Below, piece after piece: positions 3,642 to 18,962 of a stretch of 64,000 nucleotides of DNA. The translations under genes and the position numbers were made by a program. Source of the stretch: Bdellovibrio bacteriovorus HD100 (GTDB lineage Bacteria > Bdellovibrionota > Bdellovibrionia > Bdellovibrionales > Bdellovibrionaceae); assembly GCF_000196175.1 (NCBI RefSeq), contig NC_005363.1, positions 496,001-560,000 on the forward strand, given 5' to 3'. Position 1 is the first letter of the stretch; every line of letters begins with the position of its first letter. Below the pieces are notes generated by a model. The model was not told where the DNA came from, made no database searches, and saw only the letters and a list, made by a program, of their open reading frames with translations.

Positions 3642-4349
3642 ATGAGCGATGTGGGATCCGGCGGTTTTAAACCCCTTGGCAATCGTATGATGGGGCGGCC
3701 TGAACAAAAGGCGCCCGAGCAGAAGCTGCGCGAAGTTTCTGATATGTACGAAAAACATTTCCTGCGGGAGATGATGAAAGCCATGCGTTCCACCGTCAAA
3801 GAAGGCGGCTTCATTCAGTCCAATCAGGCTGAAAAAATTTTCCGTGAACAGCTTGATGACCAGTATGTAGAAAAGTGGGGCGAGCGCGGCGGTATCGGTT
3901 TGTCCAACATGATCTATGATCAGCTGATGAACAAGTTCGGTGTGGCCATGGGTGTGCGTGCACCTGTCACAAAGCCTGTTGGACCTTTGGCCATGGATGA
4001 AAAAAGCAACCTGGCTTTGAAGCCGTTCCAGCACCCGGGAAAGAAGCAGGCCCTGTCTTACCGATTCGACACTGAATCGGCCCCAGGAGCGGCTTCCGAG
4101 GTGAAGGCTCCCTGGGATGGCGTGCTTCTTGGCAAGCGCAGTTTGGCCGATGACCAGACCCTGGTCGAGATCGGTCACGACAATGGTCTAAAGAGTCAGA
4201 TGGTTTTCAAAGGCGGACTGTCAAAAGTTTCGACAGGGGAAAAACTGCAAGCTGGCGACACCCTTGGGTTTTTGAGTCCAGAGGCGAAATCACTGTACTG
4301 GACGATTGAACCCCAGAGTGAACCTAGACCAGAAACTGTCTCAGAATGA
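3642..4349 (+). CDS. flgJ: FlgJ-like rod-binding protein with degenerate LytM-like domain
   Basis: The N-terminal part (residues about 28-100) is a rod-binding domain as in FlgJ: EVSDMYEKHFLREMMKAMR, then IFREQLDDQYVEKWGERGGIGLSNMIYDQL. FlgJ caps the growing rod. In enteric FlgJ the C-terminus is a muramidase; here residues about 153-224 instead look like an M23/LytM beta-sheet fold (VKAPWDGVLLG, LVEIGHDNG, VSTGEKLQAGDTLGFLSPE, LYWTIE). The second zinc-binding HxH of active M23 enzymes is replaced by SLYWTIE, so the domain is probably not catalytic. The position between flgI and flgM fits FlgJ. The start at ATG 3642 has a TAGGAG site just upstream. Confidence 0.82.
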   Translation: MSDVGSGGFKPLGNRMMGRPEQKAPEQKLREVSDMYEKHFLREMMKAMRSTVKEGGFIQSNQAEKIFREQLDDQYVEKWGERGGIGLSNMIYDQLMNKFGVAMGVRAPVTKPVGPLAMDEKSNLALKPFQHPGKKQALSYRFDTESAPGAASEVKAPWDGVLLGKRSLADDQTLVEIGHDNGLKSQMVFKGGLSKVSTGEKLQAGDTLGFLSPEAKSLYWTIEPQSEPRPETVSE

Positions 4350-4429: not shown

Positions 4430-4759
4430 ATGAAGATCACGCACAATAAAGTCGGTCAAAATTTGAATCTTACTGATTCTTCCAGAGCTGACAACGCCGC
4501 TGGTATCAAAGGCAAAGCGGACAATATCGGCGCGGCGAAAGCTGATGTTCTGACTTCCTCCAATCTTGGCGAATCTTCTCGCGTGGAACTTTCTCCTCGT
4601 GCACAAGAAGCAAAACGCATCAAGGAACTTGCATTGGCAACTCCGGATGTTGATGAAGCTAAAGTTGCAAAATTCCGTGCCTTGATTGACGAAGGCAAAT
4701 ACAAAGTTGACGCCAAAGCCATCGCCGACAAAATGGTCGACGAACATTTGGAATTTTAG
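4430..4759 (+). CDS. flgM: FlgM, anti-sigma-28 factor
   Basis: FlgM binds the flagellar sigma factor FliA until the hook is complete, then is exported. The 109-residue product is of family size. Its N-terminal half is polar and likely unfolded; its C-terminal half has the FlgM pattern (SSRVELSPRAQEAKRIKELALATPDVDEAKVAKFRALIDEGKYKVDAKAIADKMVDEHLEF), a region that in the family contacts sigma-28. A strong GGAGGAGG site precedes ATG 4430. It sits directly upstream of flgN, flgK and flgL, the usual late-gene arrangement. It is followed immediately by a dispersed double-hairpin repeat. Confidence 0.93.
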   Translation: MKITHNKVGQNLNLTDSSRADNAAGIKGKADNIGAAKADVLTSSNLGESSRVELSPRAQEAKRIKELALATPDVDEAKVAKFRALIDEGKYKVDAKAIADKMVDEHLEF

Positions 4760-4761
4760 TC

Positions 4762-4814
4762 GCCGCCTCAGCGGGCAGAGCTGAAGCGCGCACAGCGCGC
4801 GTAAGCTGAAGCAG
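4762..4814 (+). repeat. Double-hairpin intergenic repeat, copy A
   Basis: This element begins 3 bases after the flgM stop. It reads hairpin 1 (CCGC/GCGG at 4763-4774), GCAGAG, CTGAAG, hairpin 2 (GCGCGC ACA GCGCGC at 4786-4800), GTAA, GCTGAAGCAG. The same layout occurs at 5423-5515, 6956-7006 and 18451-18504 with different stem sequences. A further hairpin (AACTCC/GGAGTT, 4818-4838) follows before flgN. Confidence 0.75.
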
Positions 4815-4899
4815 CTCAACTCCAGCGAAGCCGGAGTTTAAAAAAAGCTGCCTCGAACATAAATCTTAACCGCCCACGGCGGCATCAAGGATGATGAAG

Positions 4900-5412
4900 A
4901 TGATGGATGCAACAGTCGAAAGAGCGTTTCACAAGTTAGAATCTAATCTCGAAGAACTTACCAAAATCTACCGTTCACTGCTGGATATCGTTCGCAAAGA
5001 AAAAGAAATTCTTTTGAAGGCGGATCGTGAAGCATTGGATGAAAGCAACAAACTGAAAGAAGAGTTGCTGTTCAAACTGCGCGCTCAGGATTCCCTGCGT
5101 TCCCGTTATGCGATGGAACTGGCGACTTTGATTGGTGCGGATGTTGAAAATCCACGTTTGCTGGAGCTTGCACAGAAACTTGCAGGCACTCCAGCCGCAG
5201 ACCGTTTGCGCACGCAGCCCGCGGCGCTGGACATTTTGATCAAACGCATCCCTGAAATTAACAAAGATAACGAAGAATACACAAAGTCCGCTCTGTTGAC
5301 ATTGAACGGCGCTTTGAACAATATCAAAGAGCACGCTTTCCGGCAAGAAAACTTACGGAGGCAAAGGCCAGGTAAAACAAGGCCCACAAGTCGCAGGCAA
5401 CTTCGTATCTAA
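4900..5412 (+). CDS. flgN: FlgN, flagellar export chaperone (3' end frameshifted)
   Basis: FlgN is a cytoplasmic chaperone that escorts FlgK and FlgL to the flagellar export gate; both substrates are encoded just downstream. The helical N-terminal part is intact. The tail in this frame (after NNIKEHAFRQ) is basic and unlike the family. In the next frame the same DNA reads TLSGKKTYGGKGQ, then GNFVSKEA and a stop at 5420-5422, which is a normal FlgN ending. A single extra base near 5330-5336 (aaagagcacg instead of aaagacacg or aaagagacg) would explain this. It may be a sequencing error or a real frameshift affecting the FlhA-interacting tail. ATG at 4891, 4894, 4900 and 4903 are all possible starts; 4900 is best spaced from AAGG. 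Confidence 0.85.
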   Translation: MMDATVERAFHKLESNLEELTKIYRSLLDIVRKEKEILLKADREALDESNKLKEELLFKLRAQDSLRSRYAMELATLIGADVENPRLLELAQKLAGTPAADRLRTQPAALDILIKRIPEINKDNEEYTKSALLTLNGALNNIKEHAFRQENLRRQRPGKTRPTSRRQLRI

Positions 5413-5422
5413 GGAAGCTTAA

Positions 5423-5515
5423 GGGGCGCGAGCCCGCAGAGTCCCGGCTTGACCGGGCAGAGCACCCGCGGAAGCGGGCAGAGCCGAAGGGGCGGAGCCC
5501 CGCAGGCTGAAGCAG
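5423..5515 (+). repeat. Double-hairpin intergenic repeat, expanded copy B
   Basis: This is the longest copy of the repeat. Three successive hairpins each end in GCAGAG: GGGC/GCCC, CCCGG CTTGA CCGGG, and CCCGC GGAA GCGGG. They are followed by CCGAAG, a fourth hairpin GGGGC GGA GCCCC, and GCAGGCTGAAGCAG. It fills most of the flgN-flgK gap and ends about 30 bases before the flgK start. Confidence 0.75.
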
Positions 5516-5545
5516 TAAACGGAACCCACCGGAGATGAGGATAGG

Positions 5546-6955
5546 ATGTCTAAAATCTCGGCTATGATGGATACGGGCAAGCGCTCTCTGATGAACTCTC
5601 AGACAGCGTTGCAAACGGTCGGTCATAACATCGCCAACAAATCGACTGAAGGTTTCTCTCGCCAGAGAGTGGAGCTTCAGACGAACACGCCTATCACTGA
5701 AGGAAATCTTCAGATCGGTATGGGTGCCCGGGCAGGGGTCGTTACCCGTGTTAACAATCCATGGCTTGAAAAACAAATCCAGCGCGAAGGCATGAGCATG
5801 GGTTTCCAGGATTCCCGTGCGGATGCTCTGAGCCGTGTAGAGCAGATTTACAATGAACAAAACAACAAGGGTTTGAATCAGTACATGACTGATTTCTTCA
5901 ACTCTTTCCGTGAACTTTCCAACAACCCTGAAAGTCTGGCTTCCCGTACGATGGTGCGTGAATCCTCTGTGGCGCTGACCAAAGATTTCGGTCGCGTGGT
6001 GGGTCAGTTGAAGGCGGTTCAGGAGGACCTTGACGGTCAGATCAAAACGACCGTCGAAGAGGTCAATCAGTTGTCCAAAGAGATCGCCTCCCTGAATGAA
6101 AAGGTTCAGATGGTTGAGGTGCAGGGCACCCCTGCCAATGACGAGCGGGACCGCCGTGATCTTTTGCTGAAAAAACTGGGCGAAAAAATCGACATTTCCT
6201 GGGCCGAAGGCAGAGACGGCATGGTGACGGTGACTGCGGGTCGTACAGCGATTCTGGTTTCCGGTATCGGCTCTTCTGAATTGAAAGCCCGTCAGACGGA
6301 TGCTCGGGACCGTGTGGAAGTTTTCTTTGAGGGCAGTGGCTCTACTTCCGCGAATATCACAGAGCAAATCACCGGGGGCCGCATTGGTGGTGCTCTGGAT
6401 GTGCGTGACAAGGTGATTGAGGATCTTTTGGGTCATGTTGATAACATGGCCTACACTTTGGCTAAAGAGGTCAATACCGCTCACATCGAGGGTTTTGATA
6501 AAAGCGGCCGTAATGGTGTTTTGTTCTTTGATATGCCAGATCAGGTCAAAGGGGCCGCATCGGTTATCGGTCTGAATAAGACCGTCTTTAACGATGTGGG
6601 AAGAATCGCGACGGGAGCCCAGCCGGGTGCTGCCGGTGATAACACCGTGGCCAACGTGATCTCGGCTTTGCAATATCGCCAGGTGATGGATGGTGGCACC
6701 TCCACATTGGATGATTACTATAGCACGCAGGTGGGTCAGATCGGTGCGGTGACCCAGCGGGCGGTGAAGGCCCAGGAGTCACAAAAGAATGTGATCTCCC
6801 AGCTGACCAATATTCGTGAAAGCATCAGCGGCGTCAGCCTTGATGAAGAAACCACGAAGATGATTGAATTCCAGAAGACTTACGATGCGTCAGCGCGTTT
6901 GATCAAAACCGCCGACGAAATGTTTGATACAGTACTGAATCTAAAACGGATGTAG
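5546..6955 (+). CDS. flgK: FlgK, hook-filament junction protein 1
   Basis: FlgK (HAP1) joins the hook to the hook-filament junction. The 469-residue product has the FlgK N-terminus (SALQTVGHNIANKSTEGFSRQRVEL-type motif, residues about 18-45), the family block LNQYMTDFFNSFRELSNNPES, GRIGGALDVRD in the middle, and the C-terminal coil GVSLDEETTKMIEFQKTYDASARLIKTADEMFDTVLNL. The length is in the normal range without extra domains. It has a GGAGATGAGGATAGG-type site before ATG 5546 and is followed at once by repeat copy C and flgL. Confidence 0.95.
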   Translation: MSKISAMMDTGKRSLMNSQTALQTVGHNIANKSTEGFSRQRVELQTNTPITEGNLQIGMGARAGVVTRVNNPWLEKQIQREGMSMGFQDSRADALSRVEQIYNEQNNKGLNQYMTDFFNSFRELSNNPESLASRTMVRESSVALTKDFGRVVGQLKAVQEDLDGQIKTTVEEVNQLSKEIASLNEKVQMVEVQGTPANDERDRRDLLLKKLGEKIDISWAEGRDGMVTVTAGRTAILVSGIGSSELKARQTDARDRVEVFFEGSGSTSANITEQITGGRIGGALDVRDKVIEDLLGHVDNMAYTLAKEVNTAHIEGFDKSGRNGVLFFDMPDQVKGAASVIGLNKTVFNDVGRIATGAQPGAAGDNTVANVISALQYRQVMDGGTSTLDDYYSTQVGQIGAVTQRAVKAQESQKNVISQLTNIRESISGVSLDEETTKMIEFQKTYDASARLIKTADEMFDTVLNLKRM

Positions 6956-7006
6956 CCGCCCTAGCGGGCAGAGCTGAAGCGGCGGCAGCCGCGTAAGCTG
7001 AAGCAG
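6956..7006 (+). repeat. Double-hairpin intergenic repeat, copy C
   Basis: This copy starts directly after the flgK stop. It has hairpin CCGC/GCGG, then GCAGAG, CTGAAG, hairpin GCGGC GGCA GCCGC, GTAA and GCTGAAGCAG. Only 11 bases separate it from the flgL start, so the ribosome-binding site (ATAAGGA) lies at its edge. Confidence 0.75.
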
Positions 7007-7017
7007 ATAAGGAATAG

Positions 7018-8103
7018 ATGAGAATCGCGGATAAGATGTCTTTCAATCAGGTGAACCAGAATCTGACCAAGAACCGGTCGGATATGGCTGATTTGCAGAA
7101 TCAGGCTGCGACTCAAAAGCGTATCAACAAGCCGTCAGATGATCCTTTGGCTTCCGCGCGTGTTCTGACGGCAAGAACCGAAGAGCGCGGCAACACTCAG
7201 TTCATTAAAAACATCAATAACGCCCGAAGCTTCCTGGAGTTTTCGGATCAGTCCCTGAGCGAGCTGACCGAGATCCTGGTGCGTGCGAAAGAACTGGCCG
7301 TCAGTCAGTCGAATGATGCCAGCGGTAACGAAGAAAGCCGTATGGTCACGGCCAGTGAGATCGAGCAGATCTACAATCAGTCCATCCAGATCGGGAACCG
7401 CAAACTGGGTGAAAGATATATTTTCGGGGGTCAGAAGACCCAGACAACGCCATTCAACCAGTCCGGCGAGTACTTTGGTAACGATTCGGACATGAAGATT
7501 CAGACCCAGAAGGACTCTTTCGTGGCGATGAACCTTCCGGGCAGCAAAGTGTTCCTGGGCCGTGGTTTGGGTGGGGACGGGATTGTCCGTGCCCAATACG
7601 AAACTCCGACCGATGTTCAGTCCCTGAAGGACTTCCAGAATCAGGAAGTTGAGCGTCAACAGGTCAACGAGGAAGTGGACTCCAACTTCCTGACAACGCG
7701 TGGTCCTGCGTCAGAGTCGGGCCGCCAAAGCCGCGCGGACAGGCAAGATCCGGTCACGGGCTCTGTGGGCGTGAATTTGTTCTCGACGCTTAAGAATTTG
7801 GAAATTTCCCTGAAAACCAATGATAAAGCGGGGGTTCAGGAGTCCTTGGATACCCTGGATCAGGCTATTTCCCAGGTGGTTTTGGCTCGCTCCGAGGTTG
7901 GGTCCAGAATTATGGCCGTCAATAACACCAACGATTCCCTGCAAAAGGCCGTGGTGGACAATAAAGTAACGGCTTCCCAGCTGGAAGATGCCGATGCTTT
8001 CCAGGTTATTTCCGACATCAACAAGACCGATAGCACCCTGAAAGCGACCCTCGAAACGTCCGGTAAGCTTATTCAGCCAAGCCTTCTTGACTTTCTAAGA
8101 TAA
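7018..8103 (+). CDS. flgL: FlgL, hook-filament junction protein 3
   Basis: FlgL (HAP3) links FlgK to flagellin in the filament. The 361-residue product has a flagellin-like N-terminal coil (MADLQNQAATQKRINKPSDDPLASARVLTAR, residues about 21-51), FLEFSDQSLSELTEILVRAKELAVSQSND, and the signature KLGERYIFGGQKTQTTPF. The C-terminal coil (QAISQVVLARSEVGSRIMAVN... ASQLEDADAFQVISDINKTDSTLKATLETSGKLIQPSLLDFLR) is complete. It is the last filament-junction gene before csrA. Confidence 0.95.
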   Translation: MRIADKMSFNQVNQNLTKNRSDMADLQNQAATQKRINKPSDDPLASARVLTARTEERGNTQFIKNINNARSFLEFSDQSLSELTEILVRAKELAVSQSNDASGNEESRMVTASEIEQIYNQSIQIGNRKLGERYIFGGQKTQTTPFNQSGEYFGNDSDMKIQTQKDSFVAMNLPGSKVFLGRGLGGDGIVRAQYETPTDVQSLKDFQNQEVERQQVNEEVDSNFLTTRGPASESGRQSRADRQDPVTGSVGVNLFSTLKNLEISLKTNDKAGVQESLDTLDQAISQVVLARSEVGSRIMAVNNTNDSLQKAVVDNKVTASQLEDADAFQVISDINKTDSTLKATLETSGKLIQPSLLDFLR

Positions 8104-8656: not shown

Positions 8657-9184
8657 ATGATCATTTCAACATCGCGATTCGGCCAAGTTGAGCTGAAACA
8701 GGAAGATGTTCTGACTTTCACCGAAGGCCTGTTGGGCTTCGCTGATTTGCGCAAGTTCGTTCTTCTTGACGATCCGAATGATGAAATCTTCGCTTGGTTG
8801 CAGAGCTGCGAAGCGCCTGCAATTGCCTTCCCGGTTCTTGAGCCTGAATTGTTCGCTCCTCAGTACAAAGCAACCCTGACCAAAGGGGACATGGAAGCTT
8901 TGAAACTGACGGCTCAGGACAAAGCCCGCTACTTCTCTATCGTGACTATCCCGGATGATCCTACTTTGATGACTGCGAACCTGAAAGCTCCAGTCGTTGT
9001 GAACATTGAAGCCCGTACGGCTCGTCAGTGTGTTCTTCAGGATAACAACCTGGCTATCCGCGAGCCTATCTTCACCAAGCTGCAACAGCGTGTGGTGCAG
9101 AACCCGGCTGTCGCTATCAAAAATCAATCCACCGGCATCGATGTGGCAACCAAGCTGCATGTTGTTCGCGACGCTGAACTTTAA
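8657..9184 (+). CDS. fliW: FliW, flagellar assembly factor and CsrA antagonist
   Basis: FliW binds and allosterically inhibits CsrA and also binds flagellin, so that flagellin synthesis follows secretion (known in Bacillus and Campylobacter). The 175-residue product has the family pattern: MIISTSRFGQVELKQEDVLTFTEGLLGFADLRKFVLLDDPNDEIFAWLQS near the N-terminus, then AIAFPVLEPELF and FSIVTIPDDPTLMTANLKAPVVVN. A GGGAGGATG site precedes ATG 8657. The csrA terminator at 8414-8448 and a 265-base gap suggest it may have its own promoter. Confidence 0.95.
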   Translation: MIISTSRFGQVELKQEDVLTFTEGLLGFADLRKFVLLDDPNDEIFAWLQSCEAPAIAFPVLEPELFAPQYKATLTKGDMEALKLTAQDKARYFSIVTIPDDPTLMTANLKAPVVVNIEARTARQCVLQDNNLAIREPIFTKLQQRVVQNPAVAIKNQSTGIDVATKLHVVRDAEL

Positions 9185-18450: not shown

Positions 18451-18504
18451 GCCTCGGCGGCAGCCGGTAGAGCTGCAGCCCCGGCAGGGGCGGAAACTGA
18501 AGCA
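18451..18504 (+). repeat. Double-hairpin intergenic repeat, copy D
   Basis: The layout is hairpin CGGC GGCA GCCG, then GTAGAG, CTGCAG, hairpin CCCC GGCA GGGG, CGGAA and ACTGAAGCAG. It lies 3 bases from the stop of the - strand gene at 18507. Relative to the flanking genes it is in the opposite orientation from copies A-C. Confidence 0.65.
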
Positions 18505-18506
18505 GC

Positions 18507-18962
18507 TTACTTGCCCCAGCCCTGTTCGCTTTTGATTTGTTCGCGAATCTGTTGCTCGATACGCTCAGCCGGGATCACAGGGCCTTTGCCTACGCCGGGG
18601 CAGAAGGCTTTGACGTCCTTGGCCCAGGATTTGGCGTTCATAACCTCCGGCCAGAACGGCCAGGTTCGGCATTGGGTCGGGCGGGCCTCATAGACACTGC
18701 AGCCCTTGCCTTTCAGGAACATACAATCCGGGTTTTTCGGGTCTTCTTTCAGGTGCCAGATACCGCCGGTCATATCACAATATTTGCGGGTGAAATCGCC
18801 GGTGCGCATTTTCAGGTGTTTGGCGAAACGCTGTCGGTCCTCCAGGCTCAGGTATACAAAGCCGTACTCTCCGTGGGAGGTGCAGCATTTGCCGGAACCC
18901 GTGCATTCAAAACGAACGCCTTCGCGCCACCATTCTTTTCCTGTGAATTTAAACTCTTCCAT
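18507..18962 (-). CDS. YkgJ-type cysteine-cluster protein
   Basis: The 151-residue product belongs to the family of small proteins with clustered Cys thought to bind zinc or iron. The ligands are visible as RFECTGSGKCC near the N-terminus, PDCMFLKGKGCSVYEARPTQCRTWPFWPE in the middle, and a late Cys in KAFCPGVG. These match the family signature in order. There is no signal peptide, so it is cytoplasmic. It is 10 bases downstream of the thioesterase gene on the same strand and probably shares its transcript. The function of the family is not established. Confidence 0.85.
   Translation of the reverse strand: MEEFKFTGKEWWREGVRFECTGSGKCCTSHGEYGFVYLSLEDRQRFAKHLKMRTGDFTRKYCDMTGGIWHLKEDPKNPDCMFLKGKGCSVYEARPTQCRTWPFWPEVMNAKSWAKDVKAFCPGVGKGPVIPAERIEQQIREQIKSEQGWGK

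Follow-up and report, generated by a model that had tools for sequence, protein, structure and literature searches.

A dispersed double-hairpin repeat in Bdellovibrio, probably mobile, with copies between flagellar genes

Double-hairpin repeats between flgM, flgN, flgK, and flgL

The window analyzed here, a stretch of 64,000 nucleotides, corresponds to bases 496001-560000 of the Bdellovibrio bacteriovorus HD100 genome (G000), a single contig whose 3,782,950 bases were all searched. It carries four flagellar genes in succession on the plus strand, i.e., flgM (4430..4759, PF04316), flgN (4891..5412, PF05130), flgK (5546..6955, PF22638), and a flagellin-like flgL (7018..8103; PF00669, Flagellin_N). 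As proposed in a first-pass annotation, three copies of a double-hairpin repeat separate these genes, whose identity is confirmed by Pfam, with copies A and B lying among flgM, flgN, and flgK and copy C between flgK and flgL. Copy A (4760..4814, plus strand), between flgM and flgN, begins directly 3′ of the flgM stop codon TAG and comprises hairpin 1, CCGC(CTCA)GCGG, the linker GCAGAGCTGAA, hairpin 2, GCGCGC(ACA)GCGCGC, and the tail GTAAGCTGAAGCAG. Copy B (5413..5515, plus strand), between flgN and flgK, is an array that begins directly 3′ of the flgN stop codon TAA. GCAGAG comes after each of its three hairpin-1 units, as had been recognized previously, and a fourth hairpin, the hairpin 2 GGGGC(GGA)GCCCC, followed by the tail, must be added to them. 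The match to copy C (6953..7006, plus strand) includes the flgK stop codon TAG (6953-6955), so that the element proper spans 6956-7006; its hairpin 2 is GCGGC(GGCA)GCCGC. Copy D (18452..18505, plus strand), with GCCCC(GGCA)GGGGC as hairpin 2, is antisense to the minus-strand gene at 18507-18962 and lies 1 nt from the stop codon of that gene.

A covariance model was seeded with 13 copies picked by eye, with three degenerate copies (L007, L018, and L029) and extra array units left out of the seed set. Genome-wide, its matches in the window were exactly copies A, B, C, and D, each within a few bases of its first reported position, and the common blocks GCAGAG, CTGAAG, G(T/G)AA, and GCTGAAGCAG were found in them as described. 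A strict two-anchor pattern gave three matches in the genome versus none for a reversed control pattern, and a comparison with 4227 Rfam families returned no match in the window at the gathering score. The repeat extends well beyond these four copies. In HD100, the model found 36 places with E≤10, of which 25 had E≤0.01, and at the latter threshold it matched 22 of the 24 genomes of the genus (0 to 39 copies per genome), with G001 and G022 as the two exceptions. Across 140 genomes of the order, 22 matched at E≤1e-5, namely, 21 of the genus and G035, which belongs to a different genus of the same family and is the sole match among the 116 genomes outside the genus. The window copies are therefore members of a genus-wide family of repeats of about 50 bases in predatory Bdellovibrio. 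The genes hosting the copies have no common function, and the flagellar setting of copies A to C is incidental to the family.

Anatomy of the repeat and covariation of its stems

Scanning of 86 loci, with the weak matches L059 to L067 left out, yielded 101 matches, from which 89 distinct copies were parsed. The unit consists, in order, of hairpin 1 (often repeated), the linker GCAGAGCYGNA, hairpin 2, and the tail GNARGCTGAAGCAG. Hairpin 1 is variable and repeatable, with GCAG after every repeat in the 89 copies, and hairpin 2 usually has a 5-bp stem and a GGCA-like loop of 4 nt. The linker pairs with the tail, and the resulting outer stem carries hairpin 2, which is flanked by GC/GC and GCY/RGC pairing with a GNA/GNA internal loop remaining.

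Covariation was evaluated on 63 distinct 39-mers from the 89 copies, the remainder differing in the length of stem or loop or having a poor linker. Two-sided changes were found in 8 of 11 pairs. In the named structure, 95.5% of the 693 cells were paired compared to 84.7% in shuffles, 64 cells showed two-sided changes compared to 9.1 in shuffles, and the covariation score reached 0.337, versus 0.117 for shuffled sequences and at most 0.060 for slid controls. The proposed pair A5-U32 was broken in 22 of the 63 sequences, indicating that the middle helix really has three pairs. Hairpin-2 stems accounted for 315 pairs in this set, of which 305 were Watson-Crick, 8 were G-T, and 2 were mismatched. 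Single copies did not fold clearly better than shuffled sequences (z from −0.03 to −1.88), so the evidence for structure is the covariation across copies and not folding energy. This covariation bears out the earlier claim that the stems vary and still pair, except for the outer AGCT helix of copy D, where pairing is incomplete (AGCT versus AACT). Of the two results that the first-pass annotation had set as refutations, confinement of the repeat to the four copies and covariation lacking statistical backing, neither was obtained.

The hairpin-2 loops of the same set were most often GGCA (28), followed by GGTA (8), GGAA (6), and GGTC (5), with a C-G closing pair in 60 of 63. The frequent GGCA and GGAA loops noted at first are thus represented, with GGCA the commonest, but the loop of copy A is ACA. 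Among the GNNA loops, the third base was a pyrimidine in 42 of 50 and a purine in 8 of 50, counts in which the loops are not independent observations owing to the common ancestry of the copies. C(GNNA)G and C(GNA)G form stable mini-hairpins in DNA. The loops found here, mostly closed in this way and with their third-position pyrimidine, fit such DNA mini-hairpins better than RNA GNRA tetraloops, a preference that serves as a pointer since the copies are related.

Placement past stop codons and turnover at orthologous sites

A same-strand stop codon of an open reading frame (ORF) of at least 100 codons was present within 300 nt upstream of 70 of the 89 copies, the other 19 having none in that range. 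Of these 70 copies, 37 start at most 1 nt from the stop and 41 at most 3 nt. The stops at the 41 close copies are TAA (28) or TAG (13) and never TGA, which accounts for 84 of the 357 long-ORF stops in the stretches examined; the probability of this absence by chance is about 2e-5 to 5e-5 if the copies are taken as independent, which orthologues are not. Reading of 28 loci in HD100, with three coding copies set aside, showed that 15 of the 25 noncoding sites start 0 to 3 nt past a same-strand stop. Exceptions include L195 and L052, which lie away from any stop, as well as copy D, L046, and L058, which abut a stop on the opposite strand. The empty sites at L045, L049, L208, and L210 retain the stop codon, which is thus not supplied by the element.

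Copies also occur in frame within genes, where no TAA or TAG precedes them, and both strands of the element encode an Ala-rich peptide in one frame. The HD100 gene for the dihydrolipoamide acyltransferase (E2) contains two antisense copies, which separate its lipoyl, E3-binding, and catalytic domains and translate as AAPASAPAGAAALPAAAGK and AAPASAPTGAPALPAAASK, and the E2 gene of G021 contains one sense copy located at nearly the same linker. One antisense copy was found in a Rod-binding/M23 gene of G007, a relative of the gene at 3642-4349 in the window. Sense copies in differing numbers follow a signal-like start in a CTI-family protein of HD100 and G003, and one copy follows a signal-like peptide in a G021 protein without a Pfam match.

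FlgK was detected in all 24 genomes of the genus, which allowed the flagellar sites to be compared. Copy C is absent 3′ of flgK in G003, G006, and G007, where flgL starts within a few bases, and the FlgK proteins of G003 and G006 are 99% identical to that of HD100. Seven other species (G002, G005, G009, G019, G010, G013, and G015) have a related element exactly 3′ of the flgK stop codon, in some of them as a short form with hairpin 1 alone. The copy B site between flgN and flgK is occupied in eight species, starting at the first base 3′ of the flgN stop; the stems at these sites differ and yet pair, as with AGGGC/GCCCT in G018 and an outer AC/GT in G009. The remaining genomes have unrelated repeats or none at this site. 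A remnant at the flgN-flgK site of G006 (L097) forms the long hairpin TCCGCC-GAA-GGGGC(GGA)GCCCC-GAA-GGCGGA with a GAA/GAA internal loop. In three genomes (L108, L109, and L114), the flgN-flgK site contains a third element, GTGCGAGTTCCGCAGC...GCGAGGACTGTCCGAGC within a long inverted repeat.

Elsewhere in the genome, comparison of HD100, G003, and G006 showed that most sites common to HD100 and G003 are old. The element is absent from G006 at L045 and L049 and from HD100 at L193/L208, L195/L209, and L210. L052 is near-empty or reduced in G003 and G006, and so is the copy D site in G006, where a remnant is left; in G003, the element at the copy D site is inverted. At L040 and L221, a different repeat family replaces the double-hairpin repeat. 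A second family, with repeats of about 130 nt (GATGAAAAAGGCCC...GCGTTG...GAACCTTTTTGATC), was observed directly past stop codons where other strains have the double-hairpin repeat, at L239 (G000:C1:2125000-2142000), L222 (G003), L240 (G006), and L099 (G007). At one further site, represented by L057, L202, and L214, the number of hairpin-1 units varies among three close strains, with an unrelated hairpin insert in HD100.

Turnover was also apparent within retained copies. Hairpin-2 stems compared between genomes at 18 sites, mostly HD100 against G003 or G006, were identical at 11 and had both arms altered or replaced at 7, with no case of change in one arm. At the copy A site of G003 and G006, GGCCC(GGTA)GGGCC replaces GCGCGC(ACA)GCGCGC as hairpin 2, while hairpin 1 and the upstream flank are unchanged. 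This exact stem-loop was found nowhere else in G000, G003, or G006, although near matches differing by one loop base are present in G000 and G003.

A probable mobile repeat and its alternatives

The family thus shows presence/absence polymorphism, inversion at one site, hairpin-1 expansion, hairpin-2 replacement at fixed sites, strong stop-codon placement, and in-frame copies in genes. It shares with REPs its nature as a dispersed palindrome of many, mostly extragenic copies with pairing kept, and with MITEs a short, itself noncoding sequence whose presence at orthologous sites differs between relatives. No target-site duplication could be established. We consider it probable that the copies are genus-wide, non-autonomous, REP/MITE-like mobile palindromic repeats, probably handled as single-stranded DNA by an enzyme acting in trans. 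Presence and absence, inversion, coding copies in both orientations, and genus-wide dispersal together point to a mobile repeat without an enzyme of its own; the mobilizing enzyme would be supplied in trans. HUH (Y1) transposases recognize a folded single strand at the ends of REPs and of IS200/IS605 elements. By analogy, the structure of the Bdellovibrio repeat may be kept because its mobilizing enzyme recognizes a folded single DNA strand. Any effect of the copies on flagellar mRNA would be secondary.

The first-pass annotation had instead suggested an element selected for its structure in RNA processing, stability, or protein binding. Such a cis-acting element, located in the 3′ untranslated region or between the cistrons of an mRNA and acting on stability, as a barrier to RNase or ribosomes, or as a protein site, would be selected at the transcript level, its dispersal being secondary. 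The strong covariation agrees with this proposal, as do the sense orientation directly past stop codons at most sites and the pairing maintained between flgN and flgK over eight species, including the compensatory AGGGC/GCCCT of G018 and AC/GT of G009. However, an RNA role does not explain the main facts, i.e., presence and absence in near-identical relatives, in-place inversion, in-frame copies in both orientations, and host genes without a common function. Copy D and the HD100 E2 copies are antisense, the loops are not of the GNRA type, and single copies have no clear folding advantage over shuffled sequences. We therefore regard a primary RNA function as unlikely. A secondary RNA effect of the repeat is possible, given that the flgN-flgK copy has been kept with its pairing in several species; together with the old sites common to HD100 and G003, this retention also fits selection in place.

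Another reading, which we put forward tentatively as a minority view, ties targeting to the stop codon itself. A not-yet-recognized transposase acting in trans would move the element into single-stranded DNA just past the translation stop, cassette exchange or template switching would renew both hairpin arms jointly, and copies inside genes would provide Ala/Pro-rich linkers in either orientation.

A family of fixed, nonmobile palindromes appears rather improbable; in it, template switching inside a hairpin or gene conversion among the copies would renew the stems, and deletions would account for the empty sites. The complete absence of one-arm changes among the 18 compared hairpins speaks for such a process, and the copy A site, with its swapped hairpin 2 beside a preserved hairpin 1 and upstream flank, is consistent with it, as is the presence of a near-identical GGCCC/GGGCC stem-loop at other copies. 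Against this, the search for the exact G003/G006 stem-loop provided no clean donor, empty sites free of remnants occur in either direction and need insertion, and insertion is also needed for the E2 genes of two species, where a sense copy in one stands against antisense copies in the other.

The closest known arrangement to the mobile repeat favored here is that of REPs moved by RAYTs, though the tag and the flanking transposase are missing in this case. GTAG-tagged, RAYT-associated REPs are described in PMC3733652 and PMC2817692 as short palindromes after genes, in arrays, as dimers, and as intragenic copies. PMC3733652 also records REP ends that directly adjoin TAG stops, as well as REPs within genes, so neither trait is unique to the Bdellovibrio repeat, which resembles these REPs in its hairpins after genes, arrays, TAG contiguity, intragenic copies, and pairing kept despite stem changes. 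It is thus conceivable, but quite doubtful, that a classical REP is moved here by a RAYT (Y1 HUH) that these genomes themselves encode. Besides these likenesses, HD100 has four Y1_Tnp matches, three of them above the cutoff, and the genus has 82. Unlike those REPs, the Bdellovibrio repeat has a two-hairpin unit with paired linkers and a GNA/GNA internal loop, and the consensus of the 63 copies lacks a GTAG/GTGG head, the bases preceding hairpin 1 being the TAA or TAG of the host gene where a copy abuts a stop. Nor does the repeat flank RAYT genes: at 33 scanned Y1_Tnp loci of the 82, no copy at E≤1 was found within about 1.5 kb. Y1_Tnp and repeat counts were uncorrelated over the 24 genomes (Spearman 0.09, p 0.68), and G014 holds 18 copies with zero detected Y1_Tnp. 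Accordingly, RAYT mobilization gained no support from the Y1_Tnp search, the locus scan, or the count correlation, and the search for Y1_Tnp genes yielded no autonomous parent for the repeat. One single-domain, RAYT-like Y1_Tnp gene (G000:C1:563484-563747), near a flagellin gene about 3.5 kb past the right end of the window, is one of the four HD100 matches, none of which has the repeat at its flanks.

Other described repeats offer partial parallels. CGTC-tagged REPs, which include Rickettsia RPE-4 and RPE-6, share with the Bdellovibrio repeat the lack of a dedicated transposase beside the copies and the location of intragenic copies in linkers or at termini (PMC3733652). They differ from it in their CGTC (or TGTC/CCTC) tag and 8- to 9-bp stem, neither of which appears in the consensus or stem lengths found here (5 bp in hairpin 2), and in their tail. 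Enterobacterial RU-1/2/3 and other bacterial MITEs (PMC2759123 and PMC2229807) are also small, non-autonomous, and add peptides to proteins; this likeness is one of description, and the RU units are 103 to 168 bp (PMC2759123) versus about 50 bp for the Bdellovibrio unit. We found no description of a Bdellovibrio repeat of such kind in a survey confined to the open-access literature, which included PMC3733652, PMC6006769, PMC2817692, PMC2267715, PMC5941755, and PMC3627812, subscription papers lying outside its scope. The family would be a REP/MITE-like mobile palindrome without the defining tags or the transposase association.

Finally, CsrA-binding hairpins with a GGA loop, brought to mind by the loop of copy B, by fliW at 8657-9184, and by a putative csrA-like reading frame noticed nearby by eye, are ruled out on loop sequence and hardly credible for copies that are spread genome-wide with mostly GGCA loops.

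As a mobile repeat, the family would show how a small element supplies protein linkers in either orientation, including those of the 2-oxoacid dehydrogenase E2. If its stems are rewritten concertedly, each site changes both arms at once, and small sites that can be compared between strains while their hairpins change in this manner make a compact case. The repeat makes two questions testable, i.e., what moves REP-like repeats that lack a RAYT and how the arms of a palindrome keep their match as the sequence changes. As a warning, strong covariation among scattered copies is insufficient by itself to identify a functional RNA.
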